From Methylophilus sp. 42 (GTDB lineage Bacteria; Pseudomonadota; Gammaproteobacteria; Burkholderiales; Methylophilaceae), in NCBI RefSeq assembly GCF_000384155.1, contig NZ_KB913031.1, positions 1,674,001 to 1,738,000 on the forward strand: a DNA stretch of 64,000 nucleotides, written 5' to 3'. Shown here one piece after another: positions 49,093 through 53,533 of this stretch. The position numbers were made by a program, and so were the translations under genes. Under the pieces are notes generated by a model that was not told the DNA's origin, ran no database searches, and saw nothing but the letters and a program-made list of their open reading frames with translations. How positions within the stretch are numbered: the first letter of the stretch is position 1; each line of letters begins with the position of its first letter.

Positions 49093-49177
49093 GCCCAGAT
49101 GGCGAAATTGGTAGACGCGCTAGTTTCAGGTACTAGTGTTTAACGACGTGGAGGTTCGAGTCCTCTTCTGGGCACCA
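49093..49177 (+). tRNA. tRNA-Leu (anticodon CAG)
   Basis: 85 nt including encoded CCA. Acceptor GCCCAGA pairs with TCTGGGC; D-loop has AAATTGGTAGAC typical of tRNA-Leu; anticodon loop TTCAGGT on a CTAGT/ACTAG stem gives CAG, reading CUG. A long variable arm follows (class II tRNA), then T-arm GGAGG-TTCGAGT-CCTCT. Divergent from rnr. Confidence 0.95.
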
Positions 49178-49356: not shown

Positions 49357-49542
49357 TTAAATAGTACTTAGCAATGCTTGTCGTTTTGTGACAACCAATG
49401 GCTTAGCCATCCTTGTCCAACACTTGTCTGCAGCATGCTCAGCAACATTTCTTTTGTATCCCTGCTTCGCGCGTAAATCATCACACCGAGTCTCAGCGTT
49501 ACTCAACGCTGATCAAACTGATATCTCTTTGCCATGTCGTAA
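49357..49542 (-). pseudogene. Possible broken small gene
   Basis: An ATG near the right end (around 49535) with an AAGGTGA site encodes MAKRYQFDQR and then hits TGA. A neighbouring frame continues for 49 residues from 49506 to a TAA at 49357-49359 (LSNAETRCDDLRAKQGYK ...). The switch falls exactly at a perfect 8-bp hairpin (49493-49500/49505-49512). It reads like one ~60-residue gene with a frameshift; family not recognised, and it could be chance. Confidence 0.25.
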
Positions 49543-49570
49543 TCACCTTAAATGTGAATAGCGCTTAAAA

Positions 49571-49614
49571 AATTAACTTGTTTTAATTTAAGTTTATAAT
49601 TAACATTAATTAAC
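49571..49614 (+). promoter_or_regulatory. Possible promoter of the GG-leader peptide genes
   Basis: TATAAT at 49595-49600 in a very AT-rich stretch. AATTAAC occurs three times (49571, 49598, 49608), the last two 10 bp apart. The -35 is poor (TTAACT at 49573, 16-base spacer). The resulting leader is ~170 nt and contains a 7-bp stem, 49709-49715/49734-49740. Confidence 0.4.
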
Positions 49615-49778
49615 ACTTCATCCATTAAGTAACGAAGTGTAGTGCGTCAGACATCCACGCGTTTCAACTGAGCGTAAAAATGACGTTTAAAGGTAATTCT
49701 CTCAGCAATGGCAGTCAGTGAGAAACAAGCACCACTGCCAGCAGATTGAATTCATGTTAACTTTTAAAGAGATCTAAT

Positions 49779-49970
49779 ATGGCGATTAATCAACTTTCCC
49801 AATCTGAAACACAAAGCATTTCTGGCGGCTCCGAGTTTTTTCCAGGTTATGCATCCGGCCCTTATATTACGGGTAGCGTCTTTAGTTACTTCAACCAACC
49901 CGGTCTCGATTACCGCCCGATTTCCTGGTATCACCCAGGGTATACCCCCACACCAAGCCCATCACTTTAA
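49779..49970 (+). CDS. Small peptide with double-glycine leader (paralogue 1)
   Basis: 63 residues. The N-terminus MAINQLSQSETQSISGG matches the class of leaders removed by C39 peptidase transporters: Leu at -12, Glu at -8, Ile at -4 and Gly-Gly at -2/-1, as in colicin V. The 46-residue remainder begins SEFFPGY and is rich in aromatic residues, Pro and Gly (SVFSYFNQPG, ISWYHPGY), without Cys, ending in TPTPSPSL. AAAGAG lies upstream. Tandem paralogue of the next gene, sharing leader, core and upstream sequence. Could be a bacteriocin-like or signalling peptide, or a structural surface peptide; no family recognised. Confidence 0.7.
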   Translation: MAINQLSQSETQSISGGSEFFPGYASGPYITGSVFSYFNQPGLDYRPISWYHPGYTPTPSPSL

Positions 49971-50045
49971 CGTTACTGAGACTGACGTTTGAAGCATGAT
50001 TTGGCAAGCCAGATCGAATGAATATTAACTTTTGAAAGGTAGAAT

Positions 50046-50303
50046 ATGGCCATCAACCAACTTTCCCAATCTGAAACACAAACGGTTTCAGGCGGATCAC
50101 AATTTTTTCCAGGCTATGCCTATAGCCCTTTTATCATGGGCAGCGTCTTTAGTTACTTCAATCAACCCGGCCTCAATTACGGCCCTATCTCATGGTACAA
50201 CCCTGGATATCACGGTGGATGCATACCAGCACCTAGCCCATGCACACCACCGCCTCCACCGCCATGCGGCAGCTGCCAGCCAAGCAACCACGACCACGGC
50301 TAA
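50046..50303 (+). CDS. Small peptide with double-glycine leader (paralogue 2, Pro/Cys tail)
   Basis: 85 residues. Leader MAINQLSQSETQTVSGG is nearly identical to paralogue 1 (Val at -4). The core SQFFPGYAYSPFIMGSVFSYF... also aligns up to ISWYNPGY; after that it has its own tail GGCIPAPSPCTPPPPPPCGS, with four Cys in all, ending in SNHDHG. Ribosome site GAAAGG. It lies 75 nt after paralogue 1; upstream sequences are also similar, so the whole unit was duplicated. The Cys may form disulfides or be modified; the His/Asp end could bind metal. Function unknown. Confidence 0.72.
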   Translation: MAINQLSQSETQTVSGGSQFFPGYAYSPFIMGSVFSYFNQPGLNYGPISWYNPGYHGGCIPAPSPCTPPPPPPCGSCQPSNHDHG

Positions 50304-50412: not shown

Positions 50413-50442
50413 AAAAAGCCCCCTGCATTTAGGGGGCTTTTT
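50413..50442. terminator. Bidirectional terminator
   Basis: Perfect 12-bp stem (50413-50424/50431-50442) with A5 and T5 at its ends, between the rightward peptide genes and the leftward PEP-CTERM gene. It probably ends both. Confidence 0.9.
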
Positions 50443-50467: not shown

Positions 50468-51433
50468 TTACACGCGGCGACGTGAAAGTGCCATGAGCGC
50501 CCCTAAACCGAGCATCATCATTAAAGATGAAGAAGCCTCTGGCACCGGAGTCACTGTCAGCGACGCATAGGAATGCCCAACCGTAATGCACAAATCGGTG
50601 GTGGCTGAAAGACTCGCAGTCCCTAACAGGCCTAATGAGTTGATACCGATATCATCCAGCGTAATGCTCAAGGCATTGGTTTGCACCGCGCAACTAAATG
50701 TGGCCGCACTGCAACTGCTGGCAAGCACGCCATCTGCCCAGTATTTACTCTCATTGGCCCAGATGGAAGCATGCCCCAGCGGCCCCAGGTCCAAATCAAC
50801 GCCCCCCGAGGCTGCCGCCGCCAGGTCAATCGAATGCCCCAGAATGCTCAGACTGGCACCCGTAAAAGTGCTATCCCCGTTTGCCGTGAACAAGCCAGTG
50901 CTTTCATTCACCGTGACGGTGGATATTGAACTGATTAAATCCGCTTTCAGCGCCAACGCGCTAGACACATGAAGATCCAGATTCTCTACGCTCCCAGTAC
51001 CGATGGCGCTATTTGACCCAGGCACAGGATTGTTTTCAAGATAGGCCCCAGAACCTGAGAAAGTGGCAGACCCCGCTTGTGTTGGCATCAGCAGTGCCAA
51101 AATCGGGTTCAAGCTAGATAACACACCGTTGCCAGCGCCACTCGTGCTCAGGCCTAGATTCAGGGTTGAATTTGTTTGCGTTGGGATTGGCGTGCCTGCG
51201 CTTGCGACACTGATATCTCCCAGCGCCACTGGTGTTGTAATGCCCACGGTTGCCTGGCCTACGGTAATAGAGCCGATTGGAAATAGATTGGCTTTTGCTG
51301 TCACCTGGGCGCTTAAATCCAGATACATGCCATAGCCGTCTGCGGCATCTGCGCTGACAGCGACTGGCGCAGCAGATGCAGCGTGGCTAAAAGCGAATAA
51401 AATGGCTGTGGTAATCAGGGAATGCTTCATCAT
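50468..51433 (-). CDS. PEP-CTERM sorting-domain secreted protein
   Basis: 321 residues from ATG 51433 (a second ATG follows); GGAGAG upstream decides against the longer frame. Signal peptide ~1-21 (MMKHSLITTAILFAFSHAASA). The body is Ala/Ser/Gly/Leu-rich with no Cys-rich or catalytic motif and probably beta-rich. The C-terminus TPVPEASSSLMMMLGLGALM plus ALSRRR is a PEP-CTERM signal (VPE, hydrophobic helix, Arg cluster) cut by exosortase in EPS-producing bacteria. No exosortase gene is in the window. Two Cys pairs (CSAATFSC; CITV) may form disulfides. Confidence 0.88.
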   Translation of the reverse strand: MMKHSLITTAILFAFSHAASAAPVAVSADAADGYGMYLDLSAQVTAKANLFPIGSITVGQATVGITTPVALGDISVASAGTPIPTQTNSTLNLGLSTSGAGNGVLSSLNPILALLMPTQAGSATFSGSGAYLENNPVPGSNSAIGTGSVENLDLHVSSALALKADLISSISTVTVNESTGLFTANGDSTFTGASLSILGHSIDLAAAASGGVDLDLGPLGHASIWANESKYWADGVLASSCSAATFSCAVQTNALSITLDDIGINSLGLLGTASLSATTDLCITVGHSYASLTVTPVPEASSSLMMMLGLGALMALSRRRV

Positions 51434-51536
51434 CAATACTCTCCTAAACAAAAATAAAAACAAACGTCAATACAAATATTAACATTTGTTTGTCATTATG
51501 TTTACATTTTTTATCAATTAAAGGAGATTTAATGTC

Positions 51537-52874
51537 TTATTGTGATGCATGCACCTGGTATTCAAAGATGACAATTAATCCGCTCTGGGATGGTTTATTC
51601 TCGAGGCGAACGCTAGCCTGATGCTTTAAAGCTATTTCCTTTACAATTGCCAGGCCCAGGCCAGAGCCCGTGGTCTCTGATTGTTCTACGCGATAAAAGC
51701 GATCAAATACTTTTTCCAGTGCATCCGGCTCAATGCCTGGGCCACTATCTTCTACTTCAAATCGCAATCCATCCGCTAAGGCCGTGAGTGACAGATTAAT
51801 CACGCCATGTACAGGCGTGTAGTGAATCGCATTGACGATAATATTATTGAGCAGGACTTCAATCTCATCTGGCAGCCCCATCATGGTCACCTCGTCGGCG
51901 CGCGTGAAGCCAATATCCAGTTGTTTCTTGCGATATAACGGACCTAAATCATTCAATACTTTGATCACCAAAGGGTTTAAATGCACAGATTGCATTTCTT
52001 GCTGCCTGGCATCAGGATCCACTTTCGCCAGCGTGAGCAACTGGTGTACCAGGCGCTCCATACGTGCAACCCCACCCTGCGCTTGCTGCAGGCAATGATC
52101 TAACTCAGCTTTGTCGCCATGCTGCATGGCACTGATTTGCAACTTGAGCGCAGTCACCGGCGTCCTGAGCTCATGTGCGGCATCACCGGTGAAGCGTTTC
52201 TGCATGGCAATGGCATTACTCACTCTTTGCATCCAGCCATTCAGCGCCTGAATAATCGGCTTCAGCTCATCAGGCGGCTGGGCGATGGTAAGCGGCGTCA
52301 GTTGATCCGCGCGTCTAATGTCAATTTCAGACGATAGCGCCAGCAATGGTTTAAAGGTTTTTCGTATCACCAGCAACGCACCCAAAATCAGAAACGGCAC
52401 GATCAGCAACTGCGGAATAATCAGGTGGATAGCCACTTCGCGGATGGTGCGTTGCCGCAGTTTAAAGTCCTGTGCGACCACACAGGTAGTGTCGCCACGC
52501 TTGGCAACAAATACCTGCCAACGCTTTTGATTTGCCCATTGCGTGGACAACCCTAGCCGTGCCGTATCAACATCAAACGCACGCTGGTGCGACTGGTAAA
52601 TCACCTTCCCCTGTTGCTGTAGTTGAATCAGATAATCCTGCTCGCCACGCATTTTGGATGGAATACTGTGTTTTGCTGGGTCGTAACGCGTCGCAAGGCT
52701 TGCTAGTTGGTCACTGCCTATGATGGTCTCGGCCAAATGCTGTAAATTAGCATCATAAAGCTCACCCAGTTCGTCCGCCGTTGACTGGTAAGATAAAAAG
52801 GACAGCAAACCGATAATGCACACGATGGCAATCGACAGGTAGACGGCCAGCTCGACCCTAATGGACCGCATCAT
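51537..52874 (-). CDS. Sensor histidine kinase (QseC/PmrB-like)
   Basis: 445 residues. TM1 ~10-28 (LAVYLSIAIVCIIGLLSFL), a ~120-residue periplasmic sensor, TM2 ~145-170 (LIIPQLLIVPFLILGALLVI), a HAMP-like linker, then H-box GDAAHELRTPVTALKLQI with His234, N-box LLNNIIVNAIHYTP, and G boxes DSGPGIEP and GSGLGLAIV. Starts ATGATG overlapping the response-regulator stop by 4 nt. Forms a two-component pair with it; sensed signal not known (metal or cationic compounds are possible, from the efflux context). Confidence 0.93.
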   Translation of the reverse strand: MMRSIRVELAVYLSIAIVCIIGLLSFLSYQSTADELGELYDANLQHLAETIIGSDQLASLATRYDPAKHSIPSKMRGEQDYLIQLQQQGKVIYQSHQRAFDVDTARLGLSTQWANQKRWQVFVAKRGDTTCVVAQDFKLRQRTIREVAIHLIIPQLLIVPFLILGALLVIRKTFKPLLALSSEIDIRRADQLTPLTIAQPPDELKPIIQALNGWMQRVSNAIAMQKRFTGDAAHELRTPVTALKLQISAMQHGDKAELDHCLQQAQGGVARMERLVHQLLTLAKVDPDARQQEMQSVHLNPLVIKVLNDLGPLYRKKQLDIGFTRADEVTMMGLPDEIEVLLNNIIVNAIHYTPVHGVINLSLTALADGLRFEVEDSGPGIEPDALEKVFDRFYRVEQSETTGSGLGLAIVKEIALKHQASVRLENKPSQSGLIVIFEYQVHASQ

Positions 52875-53533
52875 GGTGCTTTTTGCCCAGGGAATGCGTA
52901 GCCTATGCCACGAACGGTTTGAATAATCTCTGCGCCAAATTTTTTGCGTATGGTATGCACATGCACTTCGACGGCATTGCTGTCGACCTCTCCGCCCCAG
53001 CCATACAGTTTTTCTTCCAGTTGTGTTTTTGAAAAAATCATTCCTGGCTGTGACATGAGCGCGTGCATGATGGCAAAAGTCTTGCTAGAAAGCCGCTGAC
53101 TGATATCGCCCATGGTTAAGGTATAACTGGCAATATCCAGCACCACATCATTAACCCGTATCTGGTTGGAGTGCCGCTCCTCTTTACGCCTGAAAATCGC
53201 GCGTAACCGGGCCTCAATCTCTTCGACAGAAAAAGGCTTTAATACATAATCATCAGCCCCAGCATCCAGGCCTTGAATGCGGTGTTCAATCGCATCCCTG
53301 GCGGTAATAATGATCACGGGCAGTGCATTGCCTGCTTTTCTTAAAGCAGACAACAAGGCCATACCAGACTTTCCAGGCAGGCCAAGATCAAGCAACATGG
53401 CATCAAACGTTTCACCGGCCAATGCCGCTTCAGCCTGAAAAGCATCTGGCGCCCAGTAAATCGCATGCGCCCGCATGGCCTGCTGCAGGCTTTCTGCGAT
53501 CATGCGGTCGTCTTCTACCAGCAATAACTTCAA
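52871..53533 (-). CDS. OmpR-family response regulator (QseB/PmrA-like)
   Basis: 220 residues. Receiver domain 1-~115 with phospho-acceptor Asp49 in DAMLLDLGLPGKSG, acidic pair EDDR and Lys in YVLKPFSVEEIEAR. C-terminal winged helix ~125-218 (RLSSKTFAIMHALMSQPGMIFSKTQLEEKLYGW, shown in part; EVHVHTIRKKFG; TVRGIGYAF). Divergent from the efflux operon; four phased CTTAA boxes in between match the half-site of QseB/PmrA-type regulators, so it probably controls both units. Confidence 0.94.
   Translation of the reverse strand: MKLLLVEDDRMIAESLQQAMRAHAIYWAPDAFQAEAALAGETFDAMLLDLGLPGKSGMALLSALRKAGNALPVIIITARDAIEHRIQGLDAGADDYVLKPFSVEEIEARLRAIFRRKEERHSNQIRVNDVVLDIASYTLTMGDISQRLSSKTFAIMHALMSQPGMIFSKTQLEEKLYGWGGEVDSNAVEVHVHTIRKKFGAEIIQTVRGIGYAFPGQKAP

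Follow-up and report, generated by a model that had tools for sequence, protein, structure and literature searches.

Tandem double-glycine-leader peptide genes of Methylophilus sp. 42 and a candidate exporter encoded elsewhere in the genome

The 64-kb window considered here (the whole stretch of Methylophilus sp. 42 DNA that was analyzed; the source genome is denoted G000) carries two adjacent genes, A and B, whose products form a new family of peptides with a double-glycine leader. Most likely the family is served in trans by one peptidase-containing ATP-binding cassette transporter (PCAT), together with three other peptide types. We regard it as quite probable that A and B are precursors of secreted peptides, with a leader that is cut by the C39 domain of this single PCAT set and a core that is exported through it, and that the same exporter handles the other three types as well.

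Gene A (49779–49970, plus strand) encodes 63 residues and gene B (50046–50303, plus strand) encodes 85. They are spaced by 75 bases, lie downstream of a tRNA-Leu(CAG) gene and have plausible ribosome-binding sites. An earlier interpretation made from the letters of the DNA, referred to below as the sequence-only reading, had placed two tandem open reading frames (ORFs) with a shared Gly-Gly leader here, and they are found exactly where it put them. In both, a 17-residue leader (49779–49829 in A and 50046–50096 in B, plus strand), with predicted cleavage after Gly-Gly, is followed by an aromatic/Pro/Gly core, the predicted start of which is SEFF in A and SQFF in B. The leader can be written MAINQLSQSETQ(S/T)(I/V)SGG and, as had been claimed for it, has Leu at −12, Glu at −8, Ile or Val at −4, and Gly-Gly at −2/−1. 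The cores, of 46 and 68 residues, are rich in Tyr, Phe, Gly, and Pro and have calculated isoelectric points of 5.3 and 6.2. Alignment bears out the description of a shared core with diverging tails: A is the tail-less form, with the C terminus TPTPSPSL, and B continues into a tail module (50220–50300, plus strand, delimited by alignment) that has four Cys residues, a run of six Pro, CGSC, and NHDH. Near counterparts of this tail align in genomes G073 and G074 and in the second gene of G065. As for matching families, of which the sequence-only reading recognized none, Pfam-A and NCBIfam reported 0 for either peptide at E ≤ 10, in searches whose filters discard most weak matches.

The consensus leader of PCAT substrates is given as L(−12)xxxE(−8)L(−7)xxxxGG, with position −7 forming part of the contact with the transporter (PMC6959990), and the leaders of A and B agree with it at all positions but −7, which is Thr in both. 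Leu at −12, Glu at −8, a hydrophobic residue at −4, and Gly-Gly are kept in all six genes of the family, so that homologues lacking Gly-Gly, which the sequence-only reading would have taken as grounds to abandon its proposal, were not encountered. The pattern M-x(2-12)-L-x3-E-x3-[VILM]-x-GG, picked post hoc after genes A and B had been found, occurs in two of the 1462 frames given by six-frame translation of the window, namely genes A and B; over 200 residue shuffles of the same frames, the mean was 0.035 and the maximum 2.

Relatives are present in four of 187 genomes of the Methylophilaceae, among which 22 genomes of the genus were compared: G000, G065 (two genes), and G073 and G074 (one each). 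A search of genome contigs gave matches in two Methylophilus strains and nothing to count beyond G073 and G074. Searches of 398 further genomes sampled from the order, and of viral contigs, plasmids, and phages, gave no relatives. Thirty of the 34 Methylophilaceae genomes with any match had weak ones only (E 0.008–0.1), which were judged to be chance; those inspected by eye, in three of the 30 genomes (L007, L008, L011) and in the source genome itself (L003), are without this leader. Between gene B and its G073 relative, the non-synonymous distance (dN) is 0.09 and the synonymous distance (dS) 1.7, a ratio of 0.05, from 10 non-synonymous and 32 synonymous codon differences; the values are 0.10, 1.0, and 0.10 for B against G074, and A and B themselves differ by a dN of 0.12 and a dS of 1.15. 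Within the family, dN is smaller than dS in 15 of 15 gene pairs, and their ratio ranges between 0.05 and 0.5. Because dN lies below dS, A and B are, on the evidence of codon substitution, real genes under purifying selection, and it is this selection that supports their translation, as the sequence-only reading had required.

Core and tail look like separable modules, because they are combined differently from genome to genome. In G073 and G074, a single gene has both. In G000, one full gene (B) stands beside one tail-less gene (A), and in G065 (L062:12551-13316), gene 1 is tail-less and gene 2 has the leader and the tail, with most of the core lost and a Gly/His-rich linker. The tail with its spaced Cys residues, CGSC, and NHDH is kept in four of the six genes.

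The sequence-only reading expected the maturation genes to lie elsewhere, and a suitable set does. Peptidase_C39 (PF03412) matches four places in G000 at E ≤ 10, one of them strongly (E 3.3e-37); all four are outside the 64-kb window, which itself contains no C39 domain. The strong match belongs to a gene set in which HlyD, C39-ABC, and TolC genes follow one another on one strand (G000:C1:2577-7474), 1.7 Mb from genes A and B on the contig. Its C39-ABC protein, a frame of 708 residues, aligns with PCAT1 (4RY2) over 680 residues (E 4e-97), and its catalytic Cys, His, and Asp align with those of 4RY2. Because the NCBIfam exporter models match it below their cut-offs, we give it no subfamily name. 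The catalytic motif is intact in the seven full-length exporters of this type that were read; the eighth, of G079, is split over contigs. A C39-ABC exporter with its catalytic residues is present in all four genomes that carry the window family, the opposite of the missing PCAT that had been named as a refutation. Other C39-like proteins of G000 were considered as the processing enzyme and set aside: frames like those of 368 and 730 residues are also found in genomes of the genus without the peptides, and because of this, their distribution does not favor them.

About 200 bases beyond the exporter set, the gene that follows in the same orientation encodes a Gly/Leu-rich peptide of 77 residues with the leader MAIQSLKKVEVEAVSGG, which has MAI, Leu-6, Glu-10, SGG, and the 17-residue length in common with the window leaders. 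A profile of both leader types, window and exporter-side, led to two further types of peptide at distant loci of G000 (E 0.002 and 0.01). By inspection of the neighbors, MAMCELNVVEVDVVSGG-(FGAGIGFFGMPEET...) lies between typA-like and polyphosphate-kinase-like genes and MRELTMTEVEVVSGG-(FSIIPEYPTSLGLVGG...) downstream of an smpB-like gene. Both of these types, families 2 and 3, are Gly/hydrophobic-rich. The cores of the exporter-side, second, and third types are weakly alike (best between-type E 2e-4, at least partly driven by composition), and the notion of four unrelated core families was dropped on that account; the window core matches no other type (E 1.2 or worse). A second peptide with a MAIQEL leader was seen in G063 (L104:4989-5243) and G079 (L103:5038-5292); it is 42% identical over 60 residues to the exporter-side peptide, is unlinked to the exporter in G063, and has a sub-threshold similarity to Pfam Bacteriocin_IIc (E 0.13).

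Applied to the 187 genomes at E ≤ 0.05, a wider leader profile matched 29 places in eight genomes, and these (G000, G063, G065, G068, G072, G073, G074, and G079) are exactly those with this type of exporter, in frames of 708–710 residues in all but G079. At that threshold it matched nothing in the other 179 genomes, among them 15 that contain C39 domains of another kind (E ≤ 1e-8). Between the sisters G063 and G067, exporter and leader peptides differ together. A further profile was built from 17 leaders of the non-window types only, and with it the window peptides rank first and second of the 1462 frames, with E values over five weightings of 0.011–0.081 for B and 0.026–0.14 for A, the next best being 7 or worse; an earlier, over-sharp build of such a profile did not find them. 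As a comparison of leaders, this ranking is an independent and non-circular check that the window peptides belong with the others.

The peptide genes also have similar upstream sites. Before gene A lies an AT-rich block (49569–49616, plus strand) that contains TTAAC-N14-GTTTA (49573–49596) and TTAACN5TTAAC (49600–49614) and is, by eye, the best-conserved part upstream of five of the six family genes. The exception is gene B, which was left out of the site counts because gene A occupies its upstream region. A −35/−10-like pair, TTAACT/TATAAT, lies within the block (49573–49600), and there are two such pairs in the region versus 2.7 expected from shuffles. Upstream of 26 peptide genes (a count in which related genomes are non-independent and which also omits the family-2 gene of G065 and the exporter-side gene of G079), there are 105 TTAAC/GTTAA half-sites, compared with a mean of 28.5 and a maximum of 43 in 200 shuffles. 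At least three half-sites stand before 20 of the 26, including all four G000 peptide genes counted (5, 4, 6, and 3), and before 2 of 105 other G000 genes (frames of at least 150 residues). Among the 23 of these controls whose upstream regions are AT-rich, there is no such case.

In 147,107 bases of G000, in stretches partly picked because they hold these genes, TTAAC-N14-GTTAA occurs in two places, before the exporter-side peptide gene, which has its own TTAAC/GTTAA sites, and before a PEP-CTERM-like gene (L138:2130-2778; G000:C1 about 1453129-1453777). The variant TTAAC-N14-GTTTA occurs there once, before gene A. The PEP-CTERM-like gene has the same arrangement as the exporter-side peptide gene, TTAAC-N14-GTTAA-N5-GTTAA, and G065, G073, and G074 keep this site; its product matches PEP-CTERM models below their cut-offs. 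TTAACN5TTAAC, with its ten-base period, occurs 4, 9, 5, and 8 times in G000, G065, G073, and G074 (reversed control 8, 8, 10, and 11) and not at all in G067, G061, and G060 (reversed control 15, 9, and 8). In a tally from coordinates, 9 of the 26 sites over the four exporter genomes are at peptide genes. These counts are suggestive only, because the pattern was picked after viewing two peptide promoters. Taken together, the upstream sites make it likely that the peptide genes are co-regulated.

A small helix-turn-helix (HTH) ORF (L137:2192-2416; G000:C1:1177691-1177915) first seemed to be the regulator because it has TTAACN5TTAAC, read as GTTAA-N5-GTTAA, upstream. It was rejected as such, being found only in 3 of the 22 genomes of the genus and 3 of the 8 exporter genomes. 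The three are G000, G073, and G074, all of them among the four genomes that carry the window family, and the match of the ORF to GerE (E 0.031) does not reach the cut-off.

These observations can be assembled into a mechanism, in which the route of export rests on the anatomy of the exporter and on co-occurrence. The C39 domain of the single canonical PCAT set would read the 17-residue leader, and a cut after Gly-Gly would free the core, beginning SEFF in A and SQFF in B, which would leave the cell through the tripartite HlyD/C39-ABC/TolC channel. The same exporter would serve the Gly/Leu-rich peptide encoded beside it and the two Gly/hydrophobic-rich peptides encoded at separate loci, and the peptide genes with similar TTAAC/GTTAA sites are probably switched on and off together.

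Several points weigh against this proposal. Residue −7 is Thr rather than hydrophobic in five of the six window-family leaders, and Ile in the other. AlphaFold2 yields no fold (pLDDT 48, with one six-residue helix). Some dN/dS ratios are higher than those of gene B, the highest being that of G065 gene 1 against gene 2 (0.26/0.49). The half-sites are not universal, the G063 exporter-side gene having none and two extra peptides of G063 and G079 one each, and TTAACN5TTAAC is genome-wide no commoner than its reversed control, with 11 copies (control 11) in G062, which has none of these peptides. The rows of the leader profile come from these same genomes, some having been found beside the exporter; the presence of leaders in these genomes is thus partly by construction, and the informative parts of the scan are only the absence elsewhere, where a diverged leader could be missed, and the new loci. 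Finally, the co-occurrence of exporter and peptides amounts to two to four independent pairs. On a tree of RNase R from 18 of the 22 genomes (G070, G071, G076, and G077 left out), the presence of the C39 exporter represents four changes, with two independent pairs on supported branches and four on all branches. Because so few changes separate the genomes, the association is without significance on the tree.

What the released peptides do can be considered only on the premise that they are exported, and all of the likelihoods that follow are conditional on it. By analogy with EbfG or Nap, a communal role, in the matrix, at the surface, or acting on the producers themselves through autolysis, has in our estimation a little less than an even chance. 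EbfG1-4 of Synechococcus elongatus are, by description, likewise small proteins with a GG motif, the transporter PteB secretes them efficiently only with its peptidase domain, and their effect is to promote biofilm formation (PMC4997328). EbfG1-3 form amyloid, and the ebfG genes make up one operon (PMC9981879), unlike the dispersed peptide genes of Methylophilus. The Naps of Neisseria gonorrhoeae are bacteriocin-like but act on the producer's own population, driving autolysis and, so far as that account goes, having no detectable antimicrobial activity (PMC11798529). They differ from the window peptides in being encoded in one island and in being cationic. A communal role would also suit the Tyr/Phe/Gly/Pro-rich cores with no predicted fold, the neighborhoods of the exporter-side gene and of families 2 and 3, which are maintained in the genomes compared, and the upstream arrangement common to the exporter-side peptide and the PEP-CTERM-like gene, which recurs before the latter in G065, G073, and G074. 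The tail of B fits it less well, since a four-Cys tail is atypical of matrix amyloids, and a PEP-CTERM-like gene was also found in a control stretch.

A substantial, if minority, possibility is that the peptides are class II microcins, antibacterial bacteriocins released by a C39 system, with the conserved tail as a target-recognition or disulfide-stapled end. Pore-forming bacteriocins are often rich in Gly and hydrophobic residues, and the other three peptide types, weakly alike, resemble Gly-rich bacteriocins in this respect. The window core is unlike theirs, however, most gene pairs are under purifying selection, and no Pfam or NCBIfam model matches either peptide. The machinery agrees with the definition of class II microcins, namely a GG leader, a C39-ABC protein with Cys, His, and Asp, an HlyD-type adaptor (the membrane fusion protein), and TolC, and sharing of an exporter is known among microcins (PMC9746304). 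Unlike them, the window genes are unlinked to the exporter, several peptide types occur in one genome, and the core is of the aromatic/Pro/Gly kind. Class II microcins are accompanied by a cognate immunity protein, although there may be exceptions (PMC9746304). An inspection without transmembrane prediction revealed no small conserved ORF next to A and B, and immunity could be unlinked or intrinsic. ORFs of 57 and 51 residues upstream (49388–49568) fall almost entirely within sequence that does not align with G073 or G065, and no immunity candidates were seen beside families 2 and 3, with ORFs viewed by eye at one locus each. Because no conserved immunity-like ORF was seen beside the genes, we lean to a communal role over that of a classic microcin; the evidence is decisive for neither.

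Distinctly less probable is a signaling peptide sensed by a receptor of kin, on the model of the pneumococcal double-glycine pheromones. The cores, at 46 and 68 residues, exceed the length of typical pheromones, which are shorter, and the nearest two-component genes (51537–53533, identified by eye) lie beyond the PEP-CTERM-like gene. In pneumococcus, by description, ComAB/BlpAB likewise export several unlinked peptides of different function (CSP, BIP, CibAB, and BriC), which are switched on together by competence (PMC7595303). That system is Gram-positive and so has no TolC, and receptors are known for some of its peptides. Metal or redox activity, with the Cys4/His tail binding metal outside the cell, seems very improbable: the spaced-Cys/CGSC/NHDH tail in four of the six genes and the Gly/His-rich linker of one G065 copy would suit it, but tail-less forms exist (A in G000, gene 1 in G065) and an even number of Cys residues also fits plain disulfides.

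A communal role could be part of a wider scheme, which we offer tentatively and think more doubtful than not. In some Methylophilus species, the genes for four types of secreted peptide would be dispersed over the chromosome yet regulated together, sharing one PCAT, one kind of leader, and a TTAAC/GTTAA operator. A PEP-CTERM surface protein, and perhaps a small HTH regulator gene, would be under the same operator; the window family would be its structural component (matrix or surface), built from a separable core and Cys tail that are split in two genes in G065.

One further system invites comparison. RaxX of Xanthomonas has a double-glycine leader, and RaxB is a PCAT. Similarly small, RaxX is made as a 60-residue precursor in the raxX-raxSTAB cluster (PMC6637879), but it is a tyrosine-sulfated mimic of a plant hormone. 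Searches of the literature on Methylophilus bacteriocins, C39 peptide secretion in Methylophilaceae, and Gram-negative or betaproteobacterial double-glycine peptides showed, among the titles listed, none on this system, with most subscription journals outside their coverage. A previous survey of double-glycine peptides in Gram-negative bacteria searched the surroundings of a C39 transporter (PMC9746304), and peptides scattered over a genome escape a survey of that kind. In Methylophilus, cores that differ are united by the leader alone into a single testable set, in step with one type of exporter, and knocking out that exporter in this methylotroph would reveal the purpose of such peptides.

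The surroundings of the locus add some minor observations. Downstream of gene B there is a terminator-like hairpin with a T tail (50420–50436, plus strand, reading on the minus strand too). Intrinsic-terminator-like sites number three in the region versus 1.2 expected, and a hairpin resembling that of gene B also follows the G073 and G074 genes. Three of the peptide or exporter loci in G000 have a PEP-CTERM-like gene nearby (window 50468–51463, L058:8968-9549, and L108:5414-6019); the L058 and L108 proteins pass the TIGR02595 cut-off, and the one in the window does not. This adjacency may mean little, because a control stretch (L059) contains such a gene too and the L108 gene lies in a stretch that does not align with the four other genomes compared. 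On the other side of the peptide locus, adjoining it and beside RNase R, is the tRNA-Leu(CAG) gene (49093–49177, plus strand). The site after it is variable, since the downstream sequence differs between most of the genomes of the genus that were compared, and in G066 this sequence starts with an ORF that by eye resembles a tyrosine recombinase.
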